This document shows, one piece after another, positions 29,274-64,000 of a stretch of 64,000 nt of DNA. This DNA comes from Thermoflexus sp. GTDB lineage: Bacteria; Chloroflexota; Anaerolineae; Aggregatilineales; Aggregatilineaceae. Made by a program: the position numbers and the translations under genes. Numbering within the stretch: position 1 is the stretch's first letter; every line of letters begins with the position of its first letter. The DNA lies in contig DYGX01000006.1 in NCBI GenBank assembly GCA_020724465.1, positions 1-64,000 on the forward strand. Reading direction: 5' to 3'. The notes under the pieces are model-generated. The model saw only the letters and a list, made by a program, of their open reading frames with translations. It did no database searches and had not been told where the DNA came from.

Positions 29274-30491
29274 TCAGCGGTTGGCGCGGCGCAGGAAGGC
29301 TGGAATATCCAGATCGTCGGCGTCGTAGACGCGCGTCGTGAATTCCTCTTCGGGCTTGCGCGTCTGCGGCGGCACAGGCGGCTGCTCCTCGACGTCCACC
29401 TCGGGCGGCGCAAGCGGCGCCGCGGCGGGTTCCTGCGCCACCGGGCGCGGTGCCGGACGCTGCGTCTGCTGCGGCTGGCGCTGCTGGACGGGCACCCGCT
29501 CGCGGGCGCCGGTCGGGCGCCGCGTCGCCACGCGTGACTGCTCGAAGCCGGTCGCGATCACAGTAATGCGGATCTCGTCGCCCATATTCTCGTCGATCAC
29601 CGCGCCAAAGATCAGGTTGACGTCGGGATGCGCCGTCTCCTTGATAATGGCCGCCGCCTCGTTGACCTCGAACAGGCTCATGTTCGGGCCGCCGGTAACG
29701 TTGAACAGGATACCGCGTGCCCCGTCGATGGTCACGTCGAGCAGGCTGCTGCTGATCGCCTCTTCGGCGGCCACGCGGGCGCGGTCTTCGCCGCTGGCCC
29801 GGCCCACCGCCATCAGCGCCGCGCCGCCTTCCGACATGATGGTGCGCACGTCCGCGAAGTCCAGGTTGATCAGGCCGGGCACCGTGATCAGCTCGGAGAT
29901 GCCCTGAATACCCTGGCGCAGCACGTCGTCGGCCATGCCGAACGCGTCTTGCAGGCTGGCGCGCTTGTCGACGATCTGGAGCAGGCGATCGTTGGGGATG
30001 ACGATCAGCGTATCGACCTGGCTCTTCAGCGCCTCGATGCCCGCCTCGGCAGCCTGAATGCGCCGCGCGCCCTCGAAGGTAAAGGGGCGCGTCACCACGC
30101 CGATGGTCAGCGACCCCAGCTCTTTGGCGACCTGCGCGATCACGGGTGCGCCGCCGGTTCCGGTCCCGCCACCCATGCCGCAGGTGATGAAAACCATATC
30201 GGCGCCGCGCAGCACCTCATACAACTCGTCGGCGCTTTCCTCGGCGGCTTTGCGGCCGATCTCCGGATTGCCCCCCGCGCCCAGGCCGCGTGTCAGTTTG
30301 TCGCCGATGCGGACCCGCGTCTTGGCTTTGCTGAGCAGCAGCGCCTGCGAGTCCGTGTTGATGGCGATGAACTCGACACCGCCCAGGCCCTCTTCGATCA
30401 TGCGGTTGACGGCGTTGCCGCCGCCCCCACCGATCCCGACCACTTTAATGCTTGCGAAGTTCTCGCCGCCCATTGGCAGAGCCTCAGCCAT
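29274..30491 (-). CDS. ftsZ: Cell division protein FtsZ
   Basis: A 405-residue tubulin-like GTPase that forms the division ring. The G-box is [17 protein letters not shown], the N-terminal loop is [14 protein letters not shown], and the T7 loop [11 protein letters not shown] is intact. A Gln/Pro-rich linker leads to the conserved C-terminal peptide [14 protein letters not shown], which normally binds FtsA. AGGAGGGTGAGG precedes the ATG. It is the last of ftsQ-ftsA-ftsZ, with a 213-nt spacer after ftsA. Confidence 0.97.
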
Positions 30492-30704: not shown

Positions 30705-31958
30705 CTAGGCGTCTTCATCCCCGGGCAGAAGTCGCCCCAGCGCCCGGCGCAGGAATCTCCCCAAGTTAGGCCCCGGCCGGCTCTTGCCGTTGGCCCCAAA
30801 CCCCTTGCGCCGGTCATCCTCAAGATCCATGATCAAGCCAAGCTTGAGCAATCCTACGCTGGTACTGTACGACGGGTTCTTCAGCGCTTCGGCCATGCCG
30901 GTGATGTGCTCCGGTTGGGCCACGCGCACCGGCATGCGCAGCACGTCCGCCGCCACCGTTTTGATCCCCGGCAGCAGGCTGCTCCCGCCGGTCAGCACGA
31001 TCCCGGCCTTCAACAGGCCGTCGTAGCCGCTGCGCTTAATCTCCTTGAGCACCAGCTCGAAGATCTCGGCCACGCGCGCGTTGACGATCAGGGCCAGGTC
31101 CGAGCGCTGCACTTTGCTGGGCAGTTCCTCGCCGAAGGGCTGGATGGGGAACGCTTCCAGCGGGCTGACCGCTTTCGGGTCCGCGTGCCCGTACTGCAGC
31201 TTGACCGCTTCGGCCAGCTCCGCCGGCAGGTGCAGGACGTGCGCGATATCGTTGGTAATGTGCTGGCCGCCCACCGCGATCACGGCGGTATGCCACACCG
31301 CGCCGTCCACAAACAGCGCCAGGTCGGTCGTGCCGCCGCCCACGTCGACGACCATCACCCCGGCCTCGCGCTCTTCCGGCGTCAGAACCACATCGCCCGA
31401 CGCCAGCGGGTTGAGGATGAAGCGATCGACGTACACCCCGGCGGACTCGACACATTTTTCCAGGTTGCGGATGTTCGCGGTGCCCGCCGTGATGATGTGG
31501 GCCTCAACTTCCAGCCGGAAGCCCAGCATCCCGAGCGGGCTGCGCAGGTTGGTCTGCCCGTCCAGCGTATAATTGCGCGGGATGACATGCAGCACCTCGC
31601 GCCCGTGCGGCAGCGGGACGGCGCGCGCCGCGTCCATCGCCCGATCGAGATCGACCAACTCCACGCCGCGCGTATTGGAGACACCCACGGCCCCCGTGCT
31701 GTTGATCGACTCGATGTGCCCCCCGGCGACCGACACAAACGCGCGCCCGATCTCGTACCCGCTGCTCCGCTCGGCCTTGTGCACCGATGACGAGATCGAC
31801 GCGCTGAGCGCGTTGACGTCCGTCACCATCCCTTTGCGCATGCCGTGTGACGGCTCGATGCCGACGCCGAGCACGTAGATATCCGTCTCGCGCACCTCGC
31901 CGACGATGGTACACACCTTGGTGGTGCCGATGTCGATCCCTACAACCAGTTCGCCCAT
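30705..31958 (-). CDS. ftsA: Cell division protein FtsA
   Basis: A 417-residue actin-like ATPase that tethers FtsZ to the membrane. Nucleotide-binding motifs are VVGIDIGTTKVCT (phosphate 1), VMVVDVGGGTTDLALF (phosphate 2), and VLTGGSSLLPG (adenosine). The C-terminus ends with an amphipathic basic helix (LGRFLRRALGRLL), as expected for a membrane-targeting sequence. The ATG at 31958 lies 8 nt past the ftsQ stop; a TTG at 31985 overlapping ftsQ is possible but less likely. Confidence 0.95.
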   Translation of the reverse strand: MGELVVGIDIGTTKVCTIVGEVRETDIYVLGVGIEPSHGMRKGMVTDVNALSASISSSVHKAERSSGYEIGRAFVSVAGGHIESINSTGAVGVSNTRGVELVDLDRAMDAARAVPLPHGREVLHVIPRNYTLDGQTNLRSPLGMLGFRLEVEAHIITAGTANIRNLEKCVESAGVYVDRFILNPLASGDVVLTPEEREAGVMVVDVGGGTTDLALFVDGAVWHTAVIAVGGQHITNDIAHVLHLPAELAEAVKLQYGHADPKAVSPLEAFPIQPFGEELPSKVQRSDLALIVNARVAEIFELVLKEIKRSGYDGLLKAGIVLTGGSSLLPGIKTVAADVLRMPVRVAQPEHITGMAEALKNPSYSTSVGLLKLGLIMDLEDDRRKGFGANGKSRPGPNLGRFLRRALGRLLPGDEDA

Positions 31959-31966
31959 TCTGCTAC

Positions 31967-32935
31967 TCAACCATTTTCGCGCCAAAGCACCGTATAGACC
32001 GGGCGATCAGGCTCGTTCATGTAGATGTCCCCAGGTTGGATGCCCTTGGCCTTGATGCTTTCGACCACTCGATAATACACCAGCAGCTTGGTATCGATCT
32101 CGTGGCCGTCGCCGAACCACACCGTCCACCCGCCACCGTCGCGGTAGCCCAACCCTTTGAGGGGATCGTAAACGAGCACGTCGATGTTGGGATGGCGCTG
32201 GCGAAGCTGCAGCGCCCCATCGACAATGGTCTGCGGCACGCGCGCTCCCACGTCCAGCGGTTCATCGACATTCGACGCCACGATGCGCAGCAGTTCCGGG
32301 CGATCCTCGCGCTGCGTCATGACAATCCCGTTCACATCCACCCACACGCGCACGCTCTGCTCCCAGATAAGCGCCGGCTCGCGCTCGGTGACGATGATCT
32401 GGACCATGTCCGGCGGCCAGCCGACATACACCTTCGCGTCGGCGATGTTGGCGACCCGCTCCAACCGCGCTTCGACCTCGTCCGGGTCGATCCAGAAGAT
32501 ATGCCGTTGGGCGACGTCGCTAAAGCGGAAGATTTCCTCGCGCGTGAGGTATTTTTCCCCCCCAATGGCCACCGAACTGACGTAGAATGCATCTGCCGTC
32601 AGGAACAAATACAGCACAACCGACAGGCCGGCGACAATCATGCCGGACACGGCGCGCCAGCCCAACAATTGTAGCGGGTTGAGCCGCACCCGGACCGGCG
32701 GCGTGACGCGGGCTGCCTGCGCTCGCTTCTTCTGTTCGCGCCGCGCCGCCCGCCGCTGCGCCAGCGTGGGCGCGCTGGCTGCTTCCAGGCGTGACAGTGG
32801 GGACATCCGCTGCGGCGCCGACTCTCCCATCTCGCCGCGCGCGATGCGCTGAGTGCGAGCCGATGGTCGGACGTGGCCTCGGGTACCGATCTCTTGACGC
32901 GCGCGCCGCTGTCGTGTCTTCAACGATGAAGCCAT
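31967..32935 (-). CDS. ftsQ: Cell division protein FtsQ/DivIB
   Basis: A 322-residue bitopic divisome protein. A long, strongly basic cytoplasmic N-terminus (about 90 residues, rich in Arg) precedes one membrane helix (AVSGMIVAGLSVVLYLFL). A POTRA domain follows (FYVSSVAIGGEKYLTREEIF) and then the FtsQ beta domain. The gene sits immediately before ftsA. The cytoplasmic extension is longer than in E. coli. Sequence identity of this family is low, so position supports the call. Confidence 0.88.
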   Translation of the reverse strand: MASSLKTRQRRARQEIGTRGHVRPSARTQRIARGEMGESAPQRMSPLSRLEAASAPTLAQRRAARREQKKRAQAARVTPPVRVRLNPLQLLGWRAVSGMIVAGLSVVLYLFLTADAFYVSSVAIGGEKYLTREEIFRFSDVAQRHIFWIDPDEVEARLERVANIADAKVYVGWPPDMVQIIVTEREPALIWEQSVRVWVDVNGIVMTQREDRPELLRIVASNVDEPLDVGARVPQTIVDGALQLRQRHPNIDVLVYDPLKGLGYRDGGGWTVWFGDGHEIDTKLLVYYRVVESIKAKGIQPGDIYMNEPDRPVYTVLWRENG

Positions 32936-48329: not shown

Positions 48330-48354
48330 GGGGGCGATCGGCATGATCGCCCCC
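48330..48354 (+). terminator. Perfect GC-rich hairpin between the WD40 gene and rsmH
   Basis: GGGGGCGATC (48330-48339) pairs with GATCGCCCCC (48345-48354) around 5 nt, 15 nt past the stop. There is no T-tract, so it is either a weak terminator or a stabilising 3' stem. Confidence 0.55.
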
Positions 48355-48372
48355 GCTGCTATCCTCGCACGC

Positions 48373-48401
48373 TTGCCGGCGCTCGCCGCCTCGTTTACAC
48401 T
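48373..48401 (+). promoter_or_regulatory. Promoter of rsmH-ftsL-ftsI-mraY
   Basis: TTGCCG (48373-48378), a 17-nt spacer and TACACT (48396-48401) lie 32 nt upstream of the GTG of rsmH. It follows the hairpin after the WD40 gene, consistent with the start of a new transcription unit. Confidence 0.55.
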
Positions 48402-48432
48402 CTCCCTGCCGTCCAACTGGCAGGAGCGCCCT

Positions 48433-49386
48433 GTGACCACACCCGACCGTCCACACATTCCCGTTCTGCTCGATGCCGTGCTGGATCTGCTGCGCGTCGC
48501 GGAGCTGCCCGCCGGCTGCTTTGTGGACGGCACGGTGGGCGCGGGCGGGCACGCCGCCGCGATCCTGGAAACCGCGCCCCAGGCCCGCCTGCTGGGGCTG
48601 GATCGTGACCCGGCGGCGCTGGCTCTGGCGCGCCAGCGGCTCGCCCCCTTCGGCGAGCGAGCGACGCTGCTCCACGCCAGCTATGAGGATATGTCCGCGG
48701 CCGTCGCCGGGTGGTTGGGCGACGGCGCAGCCGGGGTCGACGGCATCCTGCTCGATCTAGGCGTCTCATCGATGCAGCTTGACACCCCGGAGCGCGGCTT
48801 CGCTTTCATGCAAGACGGCCCGCTCGACATGCGCTTCGACCCGACATCCGACGGTCCGACCGCCGCCGAGCTGGTCAACCACCTGGACGCCGACGAGCTG
48901 GCGGACATCCTCTACCGCTACGGTGAGGAACGCCACAGCCGCCGCATCGCGCAGGCCATCGTCGCGGCCAGGCCGCTGCACACCACGCGCGCCCTGGCGG
49001 AGGTCGTCGCGCGCGCGCGGCGCGGCCCGCGCGAGAAGATTCACCCGGCCACGCGCACCTTTCAGGCCCTGCGGATCGCCGTCAACGACGAGCTGGGCGC
49101 GGTCGAGCGCGCCCTGCCCCGCGCCATCGACTTGCTGCGCCCCGGCGGGCGGCTAGCCGTCATCAGCTTCCACAGCCTGGAAGATCGCATCGTCAAGCAG
49201 ACCTTTAAGCGCGAGGCGACCGATTGCCTCTGCCCGCCGCGCCAGCCGGTCTGCACCTGCGGCCACCGCGCGCGCGTCGCGCTGATCACGCGCAAGCCGG
49301 TTGAGGCGAGCGAGGCCGAGATCGCGCTCAACCCACGCAGCCGCAGCGCCAGGCTGCGCGTGGTCGAGCGGCTGGCGGATGCGTGA
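48433..49386 (+). CDS. rsmH: 16S rRNA (cytosine1402-N4)-methyltransferase
   Basis: A 317-residue SAM-dependent methyltransferase (MraW) modifying 16S rRNA C1402, usually the first gene of the division cluster. The SAM motif is [17 protein letters not shown], followed by [18 protein letters not shown] and the C-terminal [14 protein letters not shown]. The GTG at 48433 has AGGAG 7 nt upstream and gives the expected start [10 protein letters not shown]; an ATG 90 nt earlier would add an unsupported leader. It precedes ftsL by 118 nt. Confidence 0.95.
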
Positions 49387-49504
49387 GCCGGTTTTGCAAA
49401 TACTCAATCCGATATATGATCGAGAGTGAGACGCGACGAGCCTGGTTGTTATCGGATCGCCGTGAGAGAGTATGGTTTGACGGGCGGATACGCGAGTTGT
49501 AGCC

Positions 49505-49984
49505 ATGGGTAGTGATGAGCGGCAGTCGTGGATTCAGCATACGTTCCAGCCGCCAGGCCGCGATCAACGCCAGTTGGTCGCCACCCTGTCGCTGATCGTC
49601 ATTGTGGCGATCCTGATCGGCGCGCTGTACCTGATCCAGACCACCACTACCACCACCACCGCGCGCCAGCTTCAGGAAATGAGCAATTATCGGGCGCGGC
49701 TGGAGCGCGAAAACGAGCGGCTGCGCGCCGAAATCGCCCAGCTTGAAAGCCTGCCGCGCCTGATGACACGCGCCGCCGAGCTGGGCTTCCGCCCGGCCAC
49801 CGACGACGATATCGACTACATTGTGGTCGAAGGCTATCGCTACAACCGCCCGCAGGCCACCCCCACGCCAACGCCGCTCCCCGCGCCGCCCACGCAGGTG
49901 TATGACGAGACGCTGAGCGGGTGGTTCGCCAAGCAGTGGGACGCGCTGCGCCGGCAGTTCGACGAGTGGCAGAACGAAGGTTAG
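49505..49984 (+). CDS. ftsL: FtsL/DivIC-like cell division protein
   Basis: A 159-residue bitopic protein. A soluble N-terminus, a membrane helix (VATLSLIVIVAILIGALYLI), a run of seven threonines, and a coiled coil (ARLERENERLRAEIAQLESL) match the FtsL/DivIC topology. A Pro-rich segment and a charged tail (AKQWDALRRQFDEW) follow, longer than typical FtsL. Its position between rsmH and ftsI is the canonical ftsL place. Sequence alone could not separate FtsL from DivIC. Confidence 0.8.
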   Translation: MGSDERQSWIQHTFQPPGRDQRQLVATLSLIVIVAILIGALYLIQTTTTTTTARQLQEMSNYRARLERENERLRAEIAQLESLPRLMTRAAELGFRPATDDDIDYIVVEGYRYNRPQATPTPTPLPAPPTQVYDETLSGWFAKQWDALRRQFDEWQNEG

Positions 49985-49998
49985 GGTAGGGGTTCGCG

Positions 49999-51780
49999 AT
50001 GGGTCGTGACGAAGGATTTCACCGCCGCCTGACCGTGATCACCGGGTTCATGCTGCTGATCAGCGCCGTGCTGATCGCGCGCCTGCTGTCGTTCCAGTTT
50101 CGCATGGACCCGGCCGTTAAGAGCCGGCTGGAAAGCCAGGCGCAGAACCGCTACAGCCAGACGGTCGAGGTCTATCCCAACCGCGGCCAGATCTACGACC
50201 GCAACGGGAATCTGCTGGCCGTCAACTCGTTCGAATACCGCATCGGCATCAGCCCCAACCAGGTCGTCAACCGCGCCGAAACGGCGCGCAAGCTGGCACC
50301 GCTGATCGACGTGCCAGAAGATGAGATCTACCGCAAACTCCAACCGGGGCCGGACGGCAAGCTGTCCACCTACGTGCTGCTCAAGCCGGTGGTCGGCTTC
50401 GAGGCGGGCCAGGCGATCATGGACCTGGAGCTGCCCGGCATGGTCATCGAGCCGCTGCCCACGCGCATCTACCCCGAAGGTGAGCTGACGGCCCAACTGG
50501 TCGGCATCTTTCGCGATTCGGATGCGTCGCGCACGCGGCGCGGCTATTGGGGGGTCGAGGGCTTCTACCAGACGCTGCTCGCCGGCCAGAGCAAGAAAGT
50601 CACCACCAGCGCCATCCCGGTGCTGCAAGAAGCGGCCAGCATCACGCGCGTGCGCGACGGGATCGACCTGGTGCTGACCATCGACCGCGACCTGCAATTC
50701 CTGGCGCAGGAGATCCTCAACTGGGCCGTCCAGCGCGAGCAGGCCACCGGCGGCACGATCCTGATCATGAACCCGCGCACCGGCGAGATTCTGGCGATCG
50801 CGAACTACCCGATGTTCGATCCCAACAGCCTGACGCCGGAGAACATCCAGCGCGCGCGCAACCCGGCCATTGCGGACGTCTACGAGCCGGGGTCGGTCTT
50901 CAAGATCATCACGATGGCGATGGCGCTGCAGGCCGGGACGCACGACGAGACGTGGTCCTACAACGACCCCGGCTGTTTCAACCCCGGCGGCACGCGCATC
51001 TGCAACTGGGACGGCGCCGCGCACGGCAACCAGACCTTTATCGATGTCTTTGTCAACTCGTGGAACACCGGCACGTCTACCATCTTCATGCAGATGGCGC
51101 AGCAGTTGGGCGGACCCTACGCCGTCTACGACATGCTCAAAGAGTTCGGGATCGGCAGCCCGACCGGTGTGGATCTCGAAGGTGAAGCGGCGGGCATCCT
51201 GCCCGAACCGGGCGACCTGGACTGGAACGAGGCGCAGTTCTTCACCACTAGCTTCGGGCAGGGCGTGGCGGTGACGCCGCTGCAAATGCTGACCGCCGCC
51301 AACGCCATTGCCAACGACGGCCTGATCATGCAACCGCATATCGTCAAGAAGCGCATCGACGGCAACGAGGTGATCGAGACGCGCCCGGCGGCCACCCACC
51401 GCCCCATCAGCGTCGAGGTGGCCCACCGCGCGCGCGACATCATGGTCCGCATCGTGGAAGACCCGGCCAGCCTGGACAAGTACGAGTTCACGCGCTTCAA
51501 GGTGGCGGGCAAGACGGGCACCGCCCAAATCCCGATTCCCGGCGGTTACGATCCGTCCGGCTCGATCGCGTCGTTCGTCGGGTTCCTGCCAGCGGACGAT
51601 CCGGTCGTCTCGGTGCTGGTCAAGCTCGATCGCCCGATCAACTACTGGGGCAGCCAGGCCGCCGCGCCCGTCTTCCAGGAACTGGTTGAGCGGTTGGTGG
51701 TGCTGATGGAAATCCCAAGCGACCAGGAACGCTATCAGCTCATCGCGCAGGGCGGCGATCCGTTCAGCCGCGAATATTGA
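49999..51780 (+). CDS. ftsI: Penicillin-binding protein, septal transpeptidase FtsI/PBP2-3 family
   Basis: A 593-residue class B penicillin-binding protein that cross-links septal peptidoglycan with FtsW. A short N-terminus and one membrane helix precede a dimerisation/pedestal domain (YPNRGQIYDRNGNLLAVNSF). The transpeptidase carries Ser299 in SVFK, SWN at 354-356 (SxN), and Lys505 in KTGTAQ. No PASTA domains are present at the C-terminus. It starts 14 nt after ftsL. The position in the cluster favours FtsI over an elongation PBP. Confidence 0.93.
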   Translation: MGRDEGFHRRLTVITGFMLLISAVLIARLLSFQFRMDPAVKSRLESQAQNRYSQTVEVYPNRGQIYDRNGNLLAVNSFEYRIGISPNQVVNRAETARKLAPLIDVPEDEIYRKLQPGPDGKLSTYVLLKPVVGFEAGQAIMDLELPGMVIEPLPTRIYPEGELTAQLVGIFRDSDASRTRRGYWGVEGFYQTLLAGQSKKVTTSAIPVLQEAASITRVRDGIDLVLTIDRDLQFLAQEILNWAVQREQATGGTILIMNPRTGEILAIANYPMFDPNSLTPENIQRARNPAIADVYEPGSVFKIITMAMALQAGTHDETWSYNDPGCFNPGGTRICNWDGAAHGNQTFIDVFVNSWNTGTSTIFMQMAQQLGGPYAVYDMLKEFGIGSPTGVDLEGEAAGILPEPGDLDWNEAQFFTTSFGQGVAVTPLQMLTAANAIANDGLIMQPHIVKKRIDGNEVIETRPAATHRPISVEVAHRARDIMVRIVEDPASLDKYEFTRFKVAGKTGTAQIPIPGGYDPSGSIASFVGFLPADDPVVSVLVKLDRPINYWGSQAAAPVFQELVERLVVLMEIPSDQERYQLIAQGGDPFSREY

Positions 51781-51821
51781 GCGCGGCTGCTCAGCCAAGC
51801 CGGAAGAGAGATAGGCCCGTT

Positions 51822-52271
51822 ATGACGGCTCACGATACACCGACCTCGTCAACTCCGAACGCTCAGGTTGATCTTCAGAACGCGTACATCCTAGTCGTGG
51901 CCGACAACGTCCCAAGCTTCGTCTTGATCGCCCGGCTGCTGGCGCAGATCGGCGTGAGCCACTGCGAGTGGAAAACCAGCGGCTGGCAGGTCGTCCAGTT
52001 TGCGGACACGCTGCCGTCCCTCGATCTGATCCTGCTGGACATCCGCCTGCCCTACGAAGACGGCTATCAGGCGCTGCGCAAGATCCGCGCCCATCCCAGG
52101 CTGGCCGAGACGCGCGTGGTCGCCCTGTCGGACGACGCCAGCGCGGACGAGGTGCGGCGCGCGCGCGAGGCGGGCTTCAGCGGCTTCCTGAGCCAGCCGC
52201 CCGACCCGGAGCGCTTCCCCGACCAGATCCGGCGCCTGCTGGCGGGCGATCCGGTGTGGGAGTGGCACTAG
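51822..52271 (+). CDS. Degenerate receiver-domain protein
   Basis: A 149-residue protein with a CheY-like fold. The phosphoacceptor-position Asp73 is present in LILLDIRLPYEDGY. The acidic pocket, however, reads VVADN instead of V-x-D-D, and the usual lysine after strand 5 is replaced (GFLSQPPDPE, where K-P is typical). It may therefore bind partners without ordinary phosphorylation. It sits between ftsI and mraY, a place usually taken by murE and murF, and is cotranscribed with them. A division-linked signalling adaptor is a plausible but untested role. Confidence 0.75.
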   Translation: MTAHDTPTSSTPNAQVDLQNAYILVVADNVPSFVLIARLLAQIGVSHCEWKTSGWQVVQFADTLPSLDLILLDIRLPYEDGYQALRKIRAHPRLAETRVVALSDDASADEVRRAREAGFSGFLSQPPDPERFPDQIRRLLAGDPVWEWH

Positions 52272-52369
52272 GCGCGGCGCGTCTTTCCGGCGTCCGGTAG
52301 CCAGCCGGCGCGTTGTGACGTACAATCTCCCGTCGGCAAGCCCGTCCGTTCGCACAGGATAGCTGCAGC

Positions 52370-53386
52370 ATGACCCCTGAACTGCCATTTGCGCTCACCC
52401 TGGGCGCGATCACGTTTCTGCTGACCGCCATTTGGGGCAGCCCGTTCGTCGAGGTTCTGCGCCGCCTGCGGGCCGGCAAGCAGATCCGCGAAACCGGCCC
52501 TGCCACGCACCAGCTCAAGACCGGCACGCCGACGATGGGCGGCATCCTGATCCTGGTGCCGGTTGTGCTCATCACGCTGGGGCTGAACCTGGCCCGCGTG
52601 ATCCAGTCGGGCGTGACCGGCTCGAGCATCTTGCTGCCGCTGGCGGTGCTGATCGGCTTCGGGATTCTGGGCGGCATCGACGACATCGAGGGCATTCGCA
52701 GCATCCGCGAGCGCGGCGAGGGCATCCGGGCGCGGACCAAGTTCGCCGGGCAGATCCTGCTCTCGCTGGCTGCCGCCGGAGTGATGGCGTTTGTCGGCGG
52801 CGGGTTTCAAAACGCCAACGGCGTGTTTGTCCCGCTCGTCCCCACCTTCATCGAGCTGCCGCCGGTGCTGTGGATCGCCGCCGCCGTGATCATCATCACC
52901 GGCATGAGCAACGCGGTCAACTTCACCGACGGGCTGGACGGGTTGTCCGGCATCATCACGGCCAGCGCGTTTGCCGCCTACGGCGTGATCGCCCACCTGC
53001 AAGGGCAAACCTATCTGGTGCAGTTCTGCTTCATCATGGTGGGCGCGTGCTTCGGCTTCTTGTGGTACAACGCGCACCCGGCGCAGTTGTTTATGGGTGA
53101 CGTCGGCTCGCTGGCGTTGGGCGCGGCGCTGGGCACCGTCGCGCTGATGACCGGGCAGTGGTTGCTGCTGCCGCTGGTGGCGATCATCCCTGTGGCGGAA
53201 ATCGTGACGGTCGTGCTCCAGGTGTCGTACTTCCGCCTGACCCACGGCCAGCGGCTCTTTCGTATGACGCCCCTGCACCACCACTTCGAGCTGGGCGGGT
53301 GGAGCGAGACGCAGGTCGTCCAGCGTTTCTGGCTGGTCGGCATCCTGTCGGCCATGCTCGGCGTGTCGCTGGCGCTGCTGCGCTGA
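52370..53386 (+). CDS. mraY: Phospho-N-acetylmuramoyl-pentapeptide transferase
   Basis: A 338-residue polytopic enzyme making lipid I from UDP-MurNAc-pentapeptide and undecaprenyl phosphate. Hallmarks are HQLKTGTPTMGGILIL, the aspartate pair in GGIDDIEGI, NAVNFTDGLDGLSG, FMGDVGSLALGAALG, and the C-terminal MTPLHHHFELGGWSE. The usual length is about 320-360 residues. It starts 98 nt after the degenerate receiver gene and precedes the kinase by 49 nt. Confidence 0.96.
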   Translation: MTPELPFALTLGAITFLLTAIWGSPFVEVLRRLRAGKQIRETGPATHQLKTGTPTMGGILILVPVVLITLGLNLARVIQSGVTGSSILLPLAVLIGFGILGGIDDIEGIRSIRERGEGIRARTKFAGQILLSLAAAGVMAFVGGGFQNANGVFVPLVPTFIELPPVLWIAAAVIIITGMSNAVNFTDGLDGLSGIITASAFAAYGVIAHLQGQTYLVQFCFIMVGACFGFLWYNAHPAQLFMGDVGSLALGAALGTVALMTGQWLLLPLVAIIPVAEIVTVVLQVSYFRLTHGQRLFRMTPLHHHFELGGWSETQVVQRFWLVGILSAMLGVSLALLR

Positions 53387-53435
53387 GGCAGAGACATCCC
53401 GTGCCACCCCACGGCGGATCAAAGGCAGGCAGCTC

Positions 53436-54326
53436 GTGGACGAGCAGCTCATCGGGCAGGTAATCGACGGGTACGTCATTGGACCGCTGATCGCTGCCGG
53501 GGGAATGGGCCGCATCTACCAGGCGCTCCGCGAGCGCGACCGCCGGATTGCCGCGATCAAAGTCCTGATGCCGGAATACGCGCTCGACGAGAGCTTCCGC
53601 ATCCGCTTCTGGCGCGAAGCCGAGCTGATGAGCACGCTCCGCCACCCGCATATCATTCCCGTCTACCACTACGGCGAGTGGTCCGGCTATCTGTACATCA
53701 TCATGAAACTGGTGCGGGGTCCCTCGCTGGAGCGCGTGCTGCAATTTCGCACCTTCACGCCGCTCAGCGCGTGGGCGATCGTCCGCCCGGTGACTGAGGC
53801 GCTGGGCTTCGGGCACCGGCAGCAAGTGCTGCACCGCGATCTCAAGACGGCCAACATCCTGCTGGACGCGGACCAGGGAAGCCGGCCGCATGTTTACCTC
53901 AGCGACTTTGGGCTGGGCAAGCGCCCCGGCTTCGACCGGACTCTGACGGCGGACGGGATCTCGGTCGGCACGCCGGAATATATGGCGCCCGAGGTCGCGA
54001 TGGGGGGCCAGGCCGACCCGCGCGCCGACCTTTATTCGATGGGCGTGATGATCTACGAGATGCTGTTGGGGCGGTTGCCGTTCCAGGGGCAAAGCGCGCA
54101 GATGATCGCGCTGGCGCATGTCGATGACCCCGTGCCGCGCCCGCGCCTGCTGCGGCGAGACTTCCCGCGCAGCCTCGAAACCCTGCTGTTGCGCGGCCTG
54201 GAAAAACGGCCGGATGCGCGCTTCCAGACGGCCGATGAGCTGCGCCAGGCCTATTTCGAGGCGCTCAGCACCCTGGACGAGGCTGCCCGCCGCCAGTGCT
54301 ACTGGGTCGAGCAGCCTCGCGCCTAG
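53436..54326 (+). CDS. Soluble serine/threonine protein kinase
   Basis: A 296-residue Hanks-type kinase. The P-loop is IAAGGMGRIYQA, the ATP-anchoring Lys42 lies in AAIKVL, and the catalytic loop HRDLKTANILL has Asp135. LSDFGLGK follows (DFG), then GTPEYMAPEV with the activation-loop end, and YSMGVMIYEMLLGRLPF. It consists of the kinase domain only, without a membrane helix or PASTA repeats, unlike the PknB/PrkC-type kinases that often regulate division. The start is a GTG at 53436. It is last in the rsmH-mraY run. Confidence 0.9.
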   Translation: MDEQLIGQVIDGYVIGPLIAAGGMGRIYQALRERDRRIAAIKVLMPEYALDESFRIRFWREAELMSTLRHPHIIPVYHYGEWSGYLYIIMKLVRGPSLERVLQFRTFTPLSAWAIVRPVTEALGFGHRQQVLHRDLKTANILLDADQGSRPHVYLSDFGLGKRPGFDRTLTADGISVGTPEYMAPEVAMGGQADPRADLYSMGVMIYEMLLGRLPFQGQSAQMIALAHVDDPVPRPRLLRRDFPRSLETLLLRGLEKRPDARFQTADELRQAYFEALSTLDEAARRQCYWVEQPRA

Positions 54327-57223: not shown

Positions 57224-60200
57224 CTAGGCGCCGCTCGCTTCCGGGTCAGCCAGATAGCGCCGCAGCACGATCTCAATCTGCCGGCGCTTGTCGGTCATGA
57301 AGTCCAGAATCGCCGGAAAAGCGACCGGGACCAGTTGGAGCCGGTCGCCATCCAGCGGGCGGACAAAGCAATACAGCTCCAGCTCTTTGGCGGTGCGCTC
57401 GAGCTGTTCGGGCGGCACGTGCGGCAGGCCCGCCTCGTGCAGCAGCGCCTCGATCTCCGCCAGCGCCAGCTCGCGCCGTCCTTCCGGCCAGACCATCGTC
57501 ACCAGCCGCGCCAGCGCGTTCATCTGGCCCCAGATCGTCTGCACGATCTCTTCCTGCAAAGACCGGCGCGAGGTCGCGCGGTCCAGATGCTCGACGGTCA
57601 ACAGGTTGGCGCCGGCAGGGTGCGCGTCCAGCTCCTCGACCATCGCCTGGCAGATCATCTGCACGATGTTCGGGTGCCCTGCCGAGATCTCGTAGATGCG
57701 ATCGACGATGCGCTCCGGTTGCTCCAGCCAGATGTTGAGCATCTCGAACGGATCCGCGACCAGGTGATAGACCACGCGGTGCGGGAGCGGCTGAAGCCGC
57801 ATCGCCTGCGCGAAGTTGAACAGCGCCGAGTACGGGTTGGCGGTGGCCTGCATCAGCCACTTTTCGCCGCTGAAGACGAACTGGCAGCGCTTTTCGTTGG
57901 ACAGCGAGCGGAACGTGCGGAACAGCGTCTCGTGGTTGTCCGGCTTGCGGTCGAACTCCAGCAGGCTGTCGATCTCGTCGAACAGAAAGACAAGCTGCTG
58001 GCCGGGGTGCCGGTCGTGCAGCGCGCTGACCACATCCTCGAACTGCACCGGCAACGCCTCGGGGTCGACCGGCACCTGCCAGCGGCGGTTGATCAGCCAG
58101 AAGAACGTGCGGTAGCTCGTCGCGCCGTGGCAGTCGAGGTAATACGGCACAGTGTCCGACTCGCGTGGCTTGAACAGCCGGTAGATGCATTGCAGCGTCG
58201 AGGTCTTGCCGATGCGCCGCCCGCCGATCAGCGCCACGCTGTGCGAGCGTAGCTTGCTGCGCACCTCGTTGATCTCGCGCTCGCGGCCAAAGAACATATG
58301 CTCCGGCACCGGTCCGCGCGTGTAGAACGGCGAGAGCGTCGCCAGCCGGACTTGCGCCAGCACCCGGTCGCTAAGGGCCACAATCGGCATCCGCGCCGTG
58401 ACGATGCGCCGCATGTCCGCCTCGTTCAGCATCACGACGGTGAAGTTCGCGCGGCGCAGGGCTTCGGTCGCCTGATCGAGATCGGCGCGGCCCGCCCCAT
58501 TGACCACGAAGACGAACTGCTCTTCCAGCGGCAGCGACGCGACGGCGCGGTACAGATCATCGCTCAGAGCCGCCGCCGGCCGGTCGCCAAACACAAACAG
58601 CATCGGGCAGGTGGGCGGCGGCAACTTGAGCTGAAGCGGCGGCAGCTTGAACACCACAAGCTGCACGTCCGGCGGCAGATGCGGCACCACGGCGGCATCC
58701 CGCACGCCAAGCGCGTCACCCAGCAGGCGGATCAAGGCGTGCAGCGCGGGCGCGGTTGCGTCCGGCCCGCGTGCCGACGCGGCCAGCAGCCGGTCCCACA
58801 GCGCGCCGATCTCGCGCCGGGCCGGGACCTGCACCAGATCGGCCATGGTCGAGTCCCAGCGCCGGTCGATGTGCAGCGGCGCGCCTTCCGCCGTCGCGCG
58901 CTCGTAGGCCCGGCGGTAGCGGCCACGCAGGGCCGGCAGGCTCTCGGCGGACAGCCCGTGCAGGATGCGGATGGCGACCACCCCGTCTGGGTCCGGCGAC
59001 GGGATGGTCACCCGCGCAACACCCGCCGGCGGCAGGCGCATCGGGTGATGCGTGCGCGGGGCGACGCGCACGATCTCAAAGGGCATCGGAGCGGAATGCC
59101 GGTCGTCTGCCGCCGGGACCAGCGCGGGCGTCGCCGCGGTGAGCAGGCCGTGCAGCGCCGGAGCGAAGGTGCGGGCCACCGCACCATCATCCAGCACGGC
59201 GGACAGATCGGGAACGGTCAGATGCGGCGCCACCGCACGCCGCGCCGCTGTGTCGATCGTCTCCAGAAAGCGCGTGATGCGGCGTTCCGGCGGCACGTCA
59301 TCACGCTCCCACGCGCCGTAGACCAGCGCCAGCAGATCGCGCGCGGGTTGCGCCACCAGTTCCCGCGTGCTGCTTTCGGCAGCGTCCAGCCAGGCCGGGG
59401 TCACCACTGCCCCGGCGGGAAAGCGCGGCGCCTTGCCCGTGGCGGCGTCCAGTGCGGCGCGGCACGCTGCTGCCTCGGCGGCCAGGCGCGCGCGGACCTC
59501 GTCGACCTGCGCCAGCGCCTGGCGGACATGCTCGCGCGAGGCACCGACGCGGGCGCGCAGATCGTGCGCGGCGTCCAGCCGGGCCAGCGCCAGCGCGCGG
59601 TCGAAGGCGGCCTTGCAGGCCGCCCGCCCCGCGTCTTCCAGATCGGCCAGCGCGTCCTTGCGCCCGCCGATCAGCCGCCCCGTTTTGGCGTCGTAGATGC
59701 CCGCCGCTTCGATCAAAGCGCCGCGCCGCAGTTGGACGGCGGCCTCGGCCTCGGCCAGATAGCGCTGCAGATCGTCCAGCAGCGCGGTCAGCAACCCGTC
59801 CAGCTCGTCCAGCGCGCCCAACACCCAGATCAGCCCCAACCCGCGCCCGTAGGCCAGATCGGCCGGGCTGGCCTGCAGCACGCCGTACAGCTCGCCCAGA
59901 CCGGCAGCCAGCGCCGCACCGACCCGGTCGCGCAGCGTATCCGCGCCATCTCCCGTCCCGGCCAGGTCGGGCGCGCCGTCGCCGCCGCTGTCGCGTTCCA
60001 GCCGCCGCCACTCCGCCTGGACCAGCCCGACCATTCGGGCCGGCTCGCCCCGGCTGGCGCGGCTTTCGAGCACGCGGATCAGCCCGGCAGCGCTCAGGTC
60101 GAACTGCCACTGGCGCACCCGGTCCGCAATCTCTGCGATCGCTTCAATCGTCAGGCGCAGCAACGTGTGCCGGGCGGCTTCGGCCATTTGCAGCGCCCAC

Positions 60201-61330
60201 CCGCTCGTCGGCGTGTCCGCGTGAGTGGCTTTGAGCGCGTCCAGCGCCACCTGAGCCAGACGCGCCGCGACGACGGTTTGGGCCGCGCTGGACGGCACGG
60301 CGAGCTTGCTGACGCCAAATGTACTGTAGCCGTGAAAGCGATCCGCGCTCCCGTCATGCGCGACCGGTTGGGGCAGCCGCGCGCTCGCGGCAGGCGATCC
60401 CAAACCGGACGCGATCCAGGTCAGGACGCACTCTGCCAGCGGGGCGTCGGGCGGGTCGGAAGACAGGCTGGCCGCGTCGTCCGCCAGCAGGATCATGTCC
60501 AGCGCCGGGCGCCCGCGCCGCTCGGTCAGGGTGTGGCCGGTGGTCGGCAGGTCGGACGGGTAGGCATCGGGCTGCAGGGTGTAGGCGTCGATCTCGCGCA
60601 GGGCGGCATAAGCGTTCGCCATCGCCAGCGTGCGAGCCGCTTCGCTGTCACTGGCCGGGTCGCGCAGCGAGAACACACCCAGCGTGGTCGAGGCCTTGCG
60701 CGCCGGGAGCATCCGCAGCCGCGTGGCGATGTCGAACAGCATCCCGCTGCCTTCCGGCTCGGCCAGCGAGCCGATCAGGTAGACGCGCCGCACCAGCCCG
60801 CGCGCCTGACGCGGCCCGGCATTGTCCAGCCAGGTGACCAGCCGCCACAGCGTCTCGTTCACCAGTGCCGCGTTCTCGAACAACAGCAGGCGGCTGAAGG
60901 CGCGCACACGCGTCGGGTCGTCTAACAACTCGCGGCTGCGCGGCGAGCGCGGCCACCAGCGGGCCAGGCCCAGCCCCGCATAGCGCCCAGGGACCTCGCT
61001 CCAGGGCAGCGGATCGATGCTCAGCAGCAGGCGGGCGTCGCGCGGCAGGGGAACGTCGTCGCGCTGGGCCCGGCGGCGGGCGATGGCGAGCAGGCGGACC
61101 TGGTCGCGCAGCACCGGTGGAGGAAGCGTGGCGCTCAGCATCGCGTGCAGGCGTCCCACCGCCCGCAGTCCGACCTGCCCCAGCCCGATGATCAGCGCCG
61201 CCTCGCGCAGCGGGCCGGTCAGCGGGCGCGCACGGCTCCCTAGCTCTCCCAGCGCGGCGAGCTCACATTCGGGCGGCGGCGGATCGGATGTCATAGGCCG
61301 TTCCAGGGTCGCAGAAGGCGTCGAGGACAT
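57224..61330 (-). CDS. Tubulin-like (Tubulin_2 type) domain fused to AAA ATPase
   Basis: A 1368-residue cytoplasmic protein. The N-terminus opens with ALIIGLGQVGLRAVGRLHAM. A glycine-rich loop at residues 187-197 (GSLAEPEGSGM) resembles the G-box of bacterial tubulin-like proteins. A long helical, partly coiled-coil middle follows, then LHGLSAESLPALRGRYRRAY with a histidine segment typical of that family. After a linker (LSPFYTRGPVPEHMFFGRE), the C-terminal ATPase has Walker A GGRRIGKTST (Lys1042), Walker B LVFLFDEID (Asp1118, Glu1119) and a winged-helix-like end. The start at 61330 is uncertain because ribosome-binding signals are weak; the divergent partners are FHA and PP2C genes. A cytoskeletal or signalling ATPase is inferred. 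Confidence 0.65.
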   Translation of the reverse strand: MSSTPSATLERPMTSDPPPPECELAALGELGSRARPLTGPLREAALIIGLGQVGLRAVGRLHAMLSATLPPPVLRDQVRLLAIARRRAQRDDVPLPRDARLLLSIDPLPWSEVPGRYAGLGLARWWPRSPRSRELLDDPTRVRAFSRLLLFENAALVNETLWRLVTWLDNAGPRQARGLVRRVYLIGSLAEPEGSGMLFDIATRLRMLPARKASTTLGVFSLRDPASDSEAARTLAMANAYAALREIDAYTLQPDAYPSDLPTTGHTLTERRGRPALDMILLADDAASLSSDPPDAPLAECVLTWIASGLGSPAASARLPQPVAHDGSADRFHGYSTFGVSKLAVPSSAAQTVVAARLAQVALDALKATHADTPTSGWALQMAEAARHTLLRLTIEAIAEIADRVRQWQFDLSAAGLIRVLESRASRGEPARMVGLVQAEWRRLERDSGGDGAPDLAGTGDGADTLRDRVGAALAAGLGELYGVLQASPADLAYGRGLGLIWVLGALDELDGLLTALLDDLQRYLAEAEAAVQLRRGALIEAAGIYDAKTGRLIGGRKDALADLEDAGRAACKAAFDRALALARLDAAHDLRARVGASREHVRQALAQVDEVRARLAAEAAACRAALDAATGKAPRFPAGAVVTPAWLDAAESSTRELVAQPARDLLALVYGAWERDDVPPERRITRFLETIDTAARRAVAPHLTVPDLSAVLDDGAVARTFAPALHGLLTAATPALVPAADDRHSAPMPFEIVRVAPRTHHPMRLPPAGVARVTIPSPDPDGVVAIRILHGLSAESLPALRGRYRRAYERATAEGAPLHIDRRWDSTMADLVQVPARREIGALWDRLLAASARGPDATAPALHALIRLLGDALGVRDAAVVPHLPPDVQLVVFKLPPLQLKLPPPTCPMLFVFGDRPAAALSDDLYRAVASLPLEEQFVFVVNGAGRADLDQATEALRRANFTVVMLNEADMRRIVTARMPIVALSDRVLAQVRLATLSPFYTRGPVPEHMFFGREREINEVRSKLRSHSVALIGGRRIGKTSTLQCIYRLFKPRESDTVPYYLDCHGATSYRTFFWLINRRWQVPVDPEALPVQFEDVVSALHDRHPGQQLVFLFDEIDSLLEFDRKPDNHETLFRTFRSLSNEKRCQFVFSGEKWLMQATANPYSALFNFAQAMRLQPLPHRVVYHLVADPFEMLNIWLEQPERIVDRIYEISAGHPNIVQMICQAMVEELDAHPAGANLLTVEHLDRATSRRSLQEEIVQTIWGQMNALARLVTMVWPEGRRELALAEIEALLHEAGLPHVPPEQLERTAKELELYCFVRPLDGDRLQLVPVAFPAILDFMTDKRRQIEIVLRRYLADPEASGA

Positions 61331-61553
61331 GTCACATTCGCCGCAGTTCTGCCGCAGCGGGCGTCGGCGCGTTGGCACATGTGTCCGGCGTGTCCATCGT
61401 CTTGCCACCTGTAGCGTATTCGTCCGGACCGCTCTTTACTATACATCAACTTTTCGCAACGGGCCGGGGCGCCTCACGCGGGGTATTCCTGCTTTTGGTA
61501 GGACCGTGGTACAATTCGGAGCGAAGACCACACCGGAGGTTTCACGCGCGATC

Positions 61554-62147
61554 ATGTCTCAAGGTGGCGGCTTTTGCGACCGGCACGGCCCCTATGATGC
61601 GCCGCATCGGTCCTGCCCATTCTGCGCCCTCGAAGCCGAGCAGCGCCGCGCCTATGGCCCGCCCGGCAAGACGGTGCCCAGCCGCGCCACCTCGCCGGAG
61701 ACCGCCGGTCAGGCGCTGCCGGAGCCGCCCCCGCCGCCGAACCCCACCGAAGTGATGCCCCGCAAGGCCGTTCCGCCAGACCCCGCCGCCGCTCAGCCCG
61801 CGGCAGCCGCGCCGGACGAGCCGCCCGCGCCGCTGGCCTGGCTGGTGGTGCGCGCCCCGCGCGAACGCCGGGGAGAGCTGCTGGCAATCGCGCCCAACCA
61901 GACGATTGGCCGCGAAGCGGATGTGCGCTGGGACGACCCGCGCCTCTCGCGCGTGCATGCCCGCTTCACGCTGGAGCCGCCCGAGGATGCGCCCGACGCG
62001 CCGCCCATCTTCTATCTGTGGCCCTTTGCCCCCACCAACCCGGTCTTCATCAACGGGCGGGCCATTCGCGGCGCCACCCCCTTGCGCGAGAATGATGAGA
62101 TCCAGCTCGGCAACACTCTGTTTGTGTTCAAAGTGCTGACAGACTGA
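61554..62147 (+). CDS. FHA domain protein with N-terminal zinc ribbon
   Basis: A 197-residue protein. Cys8, His11, Cys21 and Cys24 form a small zinc-ribbon-like start. A Pro/Ala-rich linker of about 60 residues leads to an FHA domain with TIGREADVRWDDPRLSRVHA (the GR and SxxH phosphothreonine-binding signature) and FINGRAIRGATPL. It should bind a phosphothreonine peptide. CCGGAGG lies 15 nt upstream of the ATG. Eight nucleotides separate it from the PP2C gene, and it is divergent from the tubulin-like/AAA gene. Confidence 0.85.
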   Translation: MSQGGGFCDRHGPYDAPHRSCPFCALEAEQRRAYGPPGKTVPSRATSPETAGQALPEPPPPPNPTEVMPRKAVPPDPAAAQPAAAAPDEPPAPLAWLVVRAPRERRGELLAIAPNQTIGREADVRWDDPRLSRVHARFTLEPPEDAPDAPPIFYLWPFAPTNPVFINGRAIRGATPLRENDEIQLGNTLFVFKVLTD

Positions 62148-62154
62148 GGATGCC

Positions 62155-64000
62155 ATGAGTCACGCGCCGTCAACCCCGCTTCACGCGCTGGTCGCCATGA
62201 AAACCGACATCGGGCGCAAGCGCAAGCAGAACCAGGACGCCATCGGCCACGCCACCCCGCCTGACCGGGAAACGACCGACCGCCTGGGGCAGCTTTTCGT
62301 GCTGGCCGATGGGGTCGGCGGGCTGTCGGGGGGTGACGTCGCCAGCCAGTACGCGGTCAGCACCATCATCAGCAGCTATTACGAGCAGGAAGAGGGCGAG
62401 CCGCCCGAGCGCCTGGCGCGAGCCATCGCCGAAGCCAACAGCCTGATCTTCTCCGAAGGGCAAAGCCAGGAAAAGCCAACCATCATGGCGACGACCGTCG
62501 TGGCGGCGGTGCTGCGCGGTGACGAGCTAGTCATCGGCAGCGTGGGCGACAGCCCGGCCTACCTGATGCGCGACGCCGACGTGCGCCAGCTGACGCTCGA
62601 CCACACCGTTGAGGTGCTGGAGCGCGAGAGCGGCGCTGCCGGCGAAGGGGGCGAACCCGGCCAGCGCAAGCTCGCCCGCGCCCTCGGCAGCCTGCCGTCG
62701 GTCAAGGTCGATATCATCTCCGGGCGCGTCCGCCCCGGCGACCATGTCGTGCTGTGCAGCGACGGCCTGACGCGCTATCTCTCGCCGCGCGAGATCGAGC
62801 AGACCGTCGCCACACTGCCCCCCAACCGCGCCGTCGACCTGCTGATCGAAACGGCCAACGAGCGCGGCGGCGCGGACAACATCTCGGTCATCGTGCTGCG
62901 TCTGGTCGCGGCGGAGCCGGCAGACGAGCCCGCCGCCGCGCCACTGGTGGACGAGAGCGCCGCGCCGGAACACCTGCCCGAGCCGCCGCCCGCGATTGCG
63001 CCGCGCCGCGACCAGATCCCCGACGGCACGCCCGAAGCGGACGAGCCGCCAGCGCAGAGCGCCTGGTCGGTGCTCTTGGACATCGCCCGCGGCAACGCGC
63101 TCATCTCGGCAGTTGGCCTGGCGGCGCTGCTCGTGGTTTTCGTCGGGTTCATGCTGCTGCTTGTGAACGTGGGCGGCGGCGGCCCGGCCCCCACGCCGAC
63201 CGTCGACCCGGCTGCCATGACCGGCGAGGCTGCAACCGCCGCGGCGTACCTGGCCGCCACGCGCCAGGCAGACGCGCAGGCGACGCAGGCCATGCTCGAG
63301 CTGACCGAAACCGCCCAGTTGGCGACCATCGCCGTCCTGACGCTGACACCGCCGCCCAACAGTGGGCCGCAGCTTGTCACCGGGATGTGGTTCAAGGTGC
63401 TGGGCACCGAGCCTATCCCGGCCTTCGAGCGGGCCGCCATCGATGCCGACGCCGCCACCGAACTGACGCCCGGCGACAACTATCGCGTCTCGGCAGTGGA
63501 CGTCAACGCGATCAACGGCTTCTGGTACTTTGTCGTGGACAACCTGGGACAAGAGACGCGTTGGGTCAACGGCCCCAGCCTGCACCAGCGCATCGTTGTG
63601 GTGGACGAGGGCGGCAACCCGCTGCCCGACGACCAGCAGCCGCCCGATCTGCCGCCCGGCGTGGTGACGCCCACCCGGCCGGCGCCGGCCCTGATCCCGC
63701 TGCCGACCGGAGTCTCCGACACGCCCGGCGCGCAAACTCCGACACCTGCCGCCGCGCCAACCCTGCCGATCATCGCCTACGGCGTCGAGAGCTGGCAGGA
63801 CGGCGTTGCCGTCGTCACCACGCTCGATCTGCAGCTATGCGAGACGCCGGTCGTCACCACCTGCGCCGCCGGACCGGTGAGCGCGGGCGAGCGCGGCGTG
63901 ATCACCGACGGGCCAACGGCATCGGGCGAGCATTGGTGGTGGAAGGTGGAGTTCGCAGACGGGCGGAGCGGCTGGATCGCACAGGTGCTGCTCAGGTCCG
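62155..64000 (+). CDS. Membrane PP2C-type protein phosphatase with extracellular SH3-like region (partial)
   Basis: The open frame runs past the window edge (615 codons visible). The N-terminal PP2C domain has metal-binding Asp28 (KQNQDAIG), Asp52 (LADGVGGLSGGD), GSVGDSPAYL, LCSDGLTRYL, and GGADNISVIVL. A Pro/Ala-rich linker is followed by one membrane helix (ISAVGLAALLVVFVGFMLLL). Outside lie Thr/Pro-rich and alanine-rich stretches, then strands with RWVNGPSLHQRI and WWWKVEFADGRSGW that resemble SH3 repeats. It probably reverses Ser/Thr phosphorylation and senses the exterior. It is cotranscribed with the FHA gene. Confidence 0.85.
   Translation, partial: MSHAPSTPLHALVAMKTDIGRKRKQNQDAIGHATPPDRETTDRLGQLFVLADGVGGLSGGDVASQYAVSTIISSYYEQEEGEPPERLARAIAEANSLIFSEGQSQEKPTIMATTVVAAVLRGDELVIGSVGDSPAYLMRDADVRQLTLDHTVEVLERESGAAGEGGEPGQRKLARALGSLPSVKVDIISGRVRPGDHVVLCSDGLTRYLSPREIEQTVATLPPNRAVDLLIETANERGGADNISVIVLRLVAAEPADEPAAAPLVDESAAPEHLPEPPPAIAPRRDQIPDGTPEADEPPAQSAWSVLLDIARGNALISAVGLAALLVVFVGFMLLLVNVGGGGPAPTPTVDPAAMTGEAATAAAYLAATRQADAQATQAMLELTETAQLATIAVLTLTPPPNSGPQLVTGMWFKVLGTEPIPAFERAAIDADAATELTPGDNYRVSAVDVNAINGFWYFVVDNLGQETRWVNGPSLHQRIVVVDEGGNPLPDDQQPPDLPPGVVTPTRPAPALIPLPTGVSDTPGAQTPTPAAAPTLPIIAYGVESWQDGVAVVTTLDLQLCETPVVTTCAAGPVSAGERGVITDGPTASGEHWWWKVEFADGRSGWIAQVLLRS

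Follow-up and report, generated by a model that had tools for sequence, protein, structure and literature searches.

A tubulin-like/ATPase fusion in Chloroflexota and its association with a second ATPase joined to a Ser/Thr kinase

Among the closest described relatives of the protein examined here are the FtsZl1 proteins, for which Makarova and Koonin (2010, PMC2875224) give coiled-coil or helical regions, a genomic context of vWA, kinase and GTPase genes, and kinase fusions in Planctomycetes. Our subject is a tubulin-like/ATPase fusion, hereafter the A protein, encoded near the end of a 64,000-nucleotide stretch of Thermoflexus sp. DNA (the window), which is the first 64 kb of the 261-kb contig C17 (DYGX01000006.1) in a 4.4-Mb genome. 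Far from being a one-off, the architecture is conserved in one family and recurs in a few metagenome-assembled genomes (MAGs) outside it. Its distribution suggests joint inheritance with a second ATPase that is fused to a kinase (B), and that B, not the FHA and PP2C genes beside it, is its real partner.

The A protein resembles the FtsZl1/Tubulin_2 proteins in that an N-terminal FtsZ/tubulin fold, passing the Pfam cut-off, is followed by a long coiled or helical region; kinases, which the same text places among FtsZl1 neighbours and, in Planctomycetes, in fusion with FtsZl1, are a further likeness. It differs in its degenerate T4 loop and its additional C-terminal STAND-like ATPase, and its partner is an ATPase-kinase fusion, whereas the partners of FtsZl1 in that text are vWA and GTPase genes. 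A vWA/GTPase/OmpA context was not recognised among the neighbour genes examined, not every one of which was profiled.

With the STAND NTPases of conflict systems (nSTAND1/MNS clade; PMC7159879 and PMC8195603), the A protein shares a P-loop ATPase with Walker motifs; its GHP motif and winged-helix-like tail may be further likenesses, and its homologues bear EAD7, TIR-like, CHAT, kinase and FHA domains. In contrast to those proteins, two separate ATPases, A and B, are paired here, the variable head is N-terminal to the ATPase, and the head is tubulin-like. A STAND family whose name in PMC8195603, 'Npun2340/2341', points to two neighbouring genes may be related to the A/B pair. Kaur et al. (PMC7159879) assign tubulin domains to conflict systems centred on GTPases and, in a separate theme, describe an active kinase with PP2C. 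Their GAP1-N2 double-GTPase systems likewise combine tubulin and coiled coil in a proposed NTP-dependent switch, with kinase and PP2C in one theme, and differ from the present case, where the fusion partner of the tubulin is an AAA+/STAND ATPase. No TRAFAC/DO-GTPase or GAP1 gene was recognised among the neighbours examined, although no search was aimed at them.

Neither a tubulin-STAND fusion nor an A/B pair is mentioned in the parts of PMC2875224 or PMC7159879 that were consulted, and no published description of a Tubulin_2-AAA fusion was found in the open literature, subscription journals lying outside the search. The first-pass annotation of this locus had taken the fusion itself as its novel part. 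This is qualified by the conservation of the architecture; what is new is that a STAND-like switch, itself of a known kind, is attached to a diverged relative of Tubulin_2. The parts of the A gene and its partner lie as follows.

57224..61330, minus strand: A protein, 1368 amino acids (aa) from the ATG at 61330; open reading frame (ORF) 57224-61408
60242..61195, minus strand: Tubulin_2 domain, residues 46-363 (Pfam; FtsZ/tubulin/CetZ fold)
60740..60769, minus strand: degenerate T4 (GTP-signature) loop SLAEPEGSGM, residues 188-197 (orthologue alignment)
59135..60205, minus strand: long helical region, residues 376-732 (predicted structure, pLDDT mostly >85 in the long helices)
58358..58678, minus strand: ~100-aa alpha/beta module preceding the ATPase, residues 885-991 (hhalign)
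57635..58303, minus strand: AAA+/STAND-like ATPase core, residues 1010-1232, with GHP motif, followed by a winged-helix-like C-terminus
58199..58225, minus strand: Walker A, GGRRIGKTS (K1042/T1043 invariant)
57974..57988, minus strand: Walker B, FLFDE (D1118/E1119 invariant)
C17:71439-73385, plus strand, outside the window: partner kinase-ATPase B (AAA_35 and Ser/Thr kinase)

Fold and GTP loop of the tubulin-like head

Ten full-length orthologues of the A protein (40-94% identity) were found in separate assemblies, which excludes an assembly artefact or a chance ORF; their alignment favours a start near Met13 over the ATG that gives 1368 aa. The relatives are mostly MAGs, annotated as Anaerolineae, Ardenticatenia or Chloroflexi, and their genes were called with a simple in-house ORF chooser.

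The Tubulin_2 profile scored 65.7 bits on the A protein against a cut-off of 27 and matched all ten orthologues. AlphaFold models were built from the window protein aligned with its orthologues. The N-terminal 775-residue model (pLDDT 77) matched CetZ, FtsZ, tubulin and TubZ, and the region after that fold, including residues 376-732, was modelled as long helices. The best structural match of the head was CetZ (3zid; Z 16.6, 3.4 Å over 227 residues), FtsZ reached a Z of ~16, and TubZ was matched in Foldseek with an E of 1.2e-3. Profile and predicted structure thus bear out the tubulin/FtsZ fold that had been proposed for the N-terminal half, and the order of tubulin-like N-terminus, helical middle and C-terminal AAA ATPase with intact Walker motifs was read correctly.

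The head had also been called glycine-rich, which is apt for the T1 loop, where GLGxxG is retained (GLGQVG in the window), and not for T4. Here the window sequence conforms to SL[AGS]E[AP]E[GS]S, the pattern across orthologues, in which GGT is lost and the GTP signature GGGTG(S/T)G is missing; in canonical Tubulin_2 proteins of the same family and phylum, T4 reads SSLCGGTGAG, GSMAGGTGAG or SLCGGTGSG. E191 and E193 of the loop are invariant in all ten aligned orthologues, and remain so when the MAG L048 is included. Two acidic side chains at the phosphate site would make ordinary GTP binding improbable, and a classical GTPase or polymer activity of the head is unlikely on the same sequence grounds. 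The conservation of the two glutamates points to a preserved structural role, and the head is probably a pseudo-tubulin. Because the T4 signature is missing, we regard it as a Tubulin_2 homologue and a derived offshoot, rather than a bona fide GTPase member.

Elsewhere in the phylum, no tubulin-fused ATPase was found in a 400-genome sample, which gave only partial matches of canonical Tubulin_2 proteins. Several Tubulin_2 paralogues occur together in a large cluster (L031-L033 on contig 317 of G012; L030/L035 in G005). One of them, L020, also has a degenerate T4 (SLDEVVGSALLLD), while the other paralogues carry the canonical GGTG, a pattern that suggests active/inactive pairs. In one set of Tubulin_2 loci the T4 loops on the minus strand are unreliable, their orientation having been taken wrongly.

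The A ATPase and its pairing with B

In the C-terminal part of the A protein, AAA_22 matched residues 1031-1159 with 45.8 bits against a cut-off of 27, and weaker ATPase_2 and nSTAND1 matches fell on the same ATPase. The GHPN motif is invariant in orthologues, and the tail is helical/winged in the model. The C-terminal 604-residue model (pLDDT 74, pTM 0.36) matched both STAND and Orc/Cdc6 folds in Foldseek, among them Orc/Cdc6, archaeal ATPase_2, plant resistosome, CED-4 and Avs structures. These matches and the model place the ATPase in the AAA+/STAND neighbourhood, its exact clade not being settled. Since the nSTAND1 score of the window protein is 24.7 bits, below the curated cut-off of 27.1, we call the ATPase STAND-like rather than filing it as nSTAND1; homologous A proteins reach nSTAND scores of 29-31 bits, with 27 of 28 matching at E<=0.001. 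The ~100-aa module before the ATPase is common to tubulin-headed, propeller-headed and short A proteins, the three architectures compared (hhalign E 4e-7 and 5e-6).

In most relatives, the downstream neighbour of the fusion is the gene for B, a ~640-aa protein with an N-terminal AAA_35-type ATPase and a C-terminal Ser/Thr kinase. The kinase scores 190 bits with Pkinase, and its Hanks-type catalytic motifs are intact (HRDVKPSN, DFG and the lysine of VAIKQ). A genome search detected B in 11 of 61 relatives at E<=1e-120, and the tubulin fusion was confined to the same 11 genomes (11/11 match): it was found by profile in ten and in the eleventh, G012, via the fragment L046, whose genome has a kinase contig, position and score identical to those of G012. 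The two genes are adjacent in seven loci, and apart yet both kept in four genomes (G000, G001, G007 and G008). Because the genomes are related, these counts are not independent events. The link to Ser/Thr phosphorylation that had been proposed for the locus therefore holds, through a kinase that lies outside the window.

The C-terminal A ATPase has a wider distribution than the fusion. An orthologue-profile search found it in 46 of 396 genomes of the class, mostly with other N-termini. Among 28 non-tubulin A proteins, 19 carry a Sortilin/BNR beta-propeller, one EAD7 and one, in the Planctomycetota (L051), a kinase with FHA; several are short. A gene for a B-type ATPase comes next in 18 of the 28 loci, and in most of them the two reading frames abut or share a few bases. 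AAA_35 matched each of the 17 B proteins that were scanned, and their tails include a kinase (L051), CHAT (L092) and TIR-like CAP12/PCTIR domains (L093, L094), with EAD7 inside one B protein; such domains agree with the conflict-type flavour suggested in the first-pass annotation. In the B proteins f46 and f15, the tails show hydrophobic, probably transmembrane stretches, as judged by eye. A tree of 70 ATPase domains separated A and B into two clades (100/100) with matching subgroups, and the tubulin-headed A proteins were monophyletic (100/99). Over 25 pairs, the distances among A proteins track those among B proteins with an r of 0.95, a value that joint inheritance alone could also yield.

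Several candidate identities were discarded. Class homologues of ~1300 aa, considered as tubulin-headed, have BNR/Sortilin beta-propellers instead; some are preceded by a ~1180-aa gene, which encodes DNA polymerase III alpha. A TIR-like identity for the f46 and f15 tails was rejected, as hhalign found no relation to the tail of L093/L094. The gene downstream of the fusion in L048 was considered as a kinase and, read in all three frames, is phosphoglycerate-dehydrogenase-like by eye; the fusion (L048:9968-14050) overlaps it by 4 bases.

FHA and PP2C neighbours and competing explanations

Three phosphorylation-related genes lie beside the A gene.

61554..62147, plus strand: FHA1, 197 aa, a Cys/His cluster (probable zinc-binding N-terminus) and FHA domain (43.4 bits)
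62155..64000, plus strand, ending at contig position 64005 just past the window: membrane PP2C phosphatase, 616 aa (PP2C_2, 61.8 bits)
64063-64776 of the contig, minus strand, outside the window: FHA2, a transmembrane segment, zinc ribbon and FHA domain (69.9 bits)

The fusion thus faces FHA and membrane PP2C genes, as had been noted, and in FHA1 the residues C8, H11, C21 and C24 and those of the FHA domain are invariant in four orthologues. A family-wide search rejected these genes as specific partners of the fusion: FHA1 with a full-length PP2C is an operon of nearly all family members; six relatives (G003, G006, G009, G014, G015 and G017) have it but lack the fusion, and in four (G005, G007, G008 and G013) it lies on another contig than the fusion. 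It adjoins the fusion, divergently, in five of the 11 genomes with the fusion (G000, G001, G004, G010 and G011). As the operon occurs throughout the family whether or not the fusion is there, the neighbourhood is real but not specific. One may then ask whether the adjacency is biologically meaningless, a neutral placement beside an unrelated gene. The genomes in which the operon does without the fusion or lies away from it favour this; against it stand the five divergent arrangements, and the fact that the steady partner of the fusion is a kinase, beside which a phospho-reader and eraser make sense, with a Planctomycetota relative in which the A ATPase itself is fused to a kinase and FHA. We consider neutral placement a serious possibility, albeit one somewhat on the improbable side.

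We lean, with slightly better than even confidence, towards a two-ATPase switch in which A, with its probable pseudo-tubulin head, would act as input or scaffold and the kinase of B would provide the output. This assignment is made because A heads vary among recognition-type and B tails among effector-type domains, and it draws on the observed domains, predicted fold, motifs, co-occurrence, pairing and modular head/tail swaps. The STAND-like ATPase of A would work with the AAA_35 ATPase of B, and the head would bind or sense a ligand, perhaps FtsZ or another protein of tubulin fold, rather than form a GTP-hydrolysing polymer. Its engagement would lead to ATP-dependent co-assembly of A and B, bringing the kinase domains together and switching phosphorylation on; the family-wide FHA proteins could then read the marks and the membrane PP2C erase them. 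We infer the A-B complex, the loss of GTP binding, the direction of signalling, the ligand and any FHA/PP2C role. Several points weigh against the two-ATPase switch. The loss of GTP binding is read from the sequence only, and the ATPase model is of modest confidence, with the nSTAND1 and AAA_35 scores in the window genome itself falling slightly below the curated cut-offs. A neighbouring B gene is missing at ten of the 28 non-tubulin A loci, and in the genus of the window 10 kb separate A from B. No B ATPase was detected in L048, a MAG outside the 61 relatives that has the fusion and may be incomplete. In addition, related genomes that inherit both genes vertically would be expected to show the same co-occurrence and the same agreement of trees. 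A tubulin fold that seems to lack its GTP signature is here linked both with an ATPase of switch type and with its own kinase, a use of the fold that may be neither filament nor GTPase. The wider A/B pair, with its swappable input heads and output tails, also offers a simple, testable framework for many uncharacterised Chloroflexota proteins and, if the pairing holds, would extend two-NTPase sensing logic to bacteria.

The cytoskeletal system originally envisaged, with the head as an active polymerising GTPase, the AAA domain remodelling the polymer and FHA/PP2C coupling it to phosphorylation, agrees with the fold, the retained T1 loop and the long coiled helices, as in FtsZl1 proteins (PMC2875224). 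It seems very unlikely to us, because the degenerate T4 loop, GGT having become EAE with two invariant glutamates, argues against a GTP-driven polymer; FHA/PP2C are also not specifically linked to the fusion, and relatives carry non-tubulin heads on the same ATPase scaffold. We also doubt a division or cell-wall checkpoint of housekeeping type, in which the head contacts FtsZ and the kinase, PP2C and FHA set controls division: ftsZ, ftsA and an mraW-PBP-mraY-kinase cluster are in the window and FHA1-PP2C is family-wide, but the proximity of the wall cluster is seen only in the genus of the window, and the near-complete relatives G003, G006, G009 and G014, which must divide, lack the fusion. 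A dedicated conflict system (anti-phage or programmed death), with the head or the A-B complex as sensor of an invader and the kinase as toxic effector, would suit the sister pairs with CHAT, TIR-like and EAD7 domains, the one locus with a SIR2-nSTAND1 protein, and the tubulin domains proposed in GTPase-centred conflict systems, kinase and PP2C occurring in another theme (PMC7159879). This too is improbable: no PADLOC model matches the fusion, and B gave only generic kinase matches, the orthologues are fairly conserved, single-copy and not diversifying, and no other recognised defence gene occurs in the tubulin loci read, though not all neighbours there were profiled.

A more speculative extension of the two-ATPase switch, which we consider unlikely as it stands, draws on plants. 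In plant NLR sensor-helper pairs, two NTPases divide the work, one sensing and one executing, and the sensor often has an unusual integrated domain. By analogy, which on the side of homology extends to the ATPase fold, A and B could have sensing and executing roles; the present pair differs in being bacterial and in having a kinase output. The dead tubulin might serve as a decoy or sensor of FtsZ or invader tubulins, its engagement letting the paired ATPases assemble and fire the kinase, as a member of an undescribed A/B switch family with exchangeable sensors and effectors.

Other features were seen around A-type genes and in the window. In L051:1197-6432, a single polypeptide combines a kinase and FHA with an A-type ATPase, and the next gene encodes a B-type ATPase-kinase fusion. 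The A/B pair at L102:432-11426 is flanked by kinase-FHA, kinase-PD40, SIR2-nSTAND1-HEAT and double-FHA proteins. A-type ATPase genes of several families lie directly beside dnaE (DNA polymerase III alpha) in L089, L098, L103 and L104, and probably in L095-L097 and L099. Two overlapping genes of a cyanobacterium (L052:7086-11152), one for a 957-aa nSTAND1-like ATPase and the other for a 424-aa protein whose tail is HTH-like, are possibly a distant version of the A/B pair. Within the window, ftsZ (29274-30491; PF00091, 176.9 bits at 29967-30452) and ftsA (30705-31985) lie on the minus strand 27 kb from the fusion, and a cell-wall/division cluster of mraW, a class-B penicillin-binding protein (PBP), an mraY-like transferase and a Ser/Thr kinase occupies 48343-54326 on the plus strand, ~3-9 kb from the fusion. 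This cluster is also found near the fusion in the MAG L022 of the same genus.

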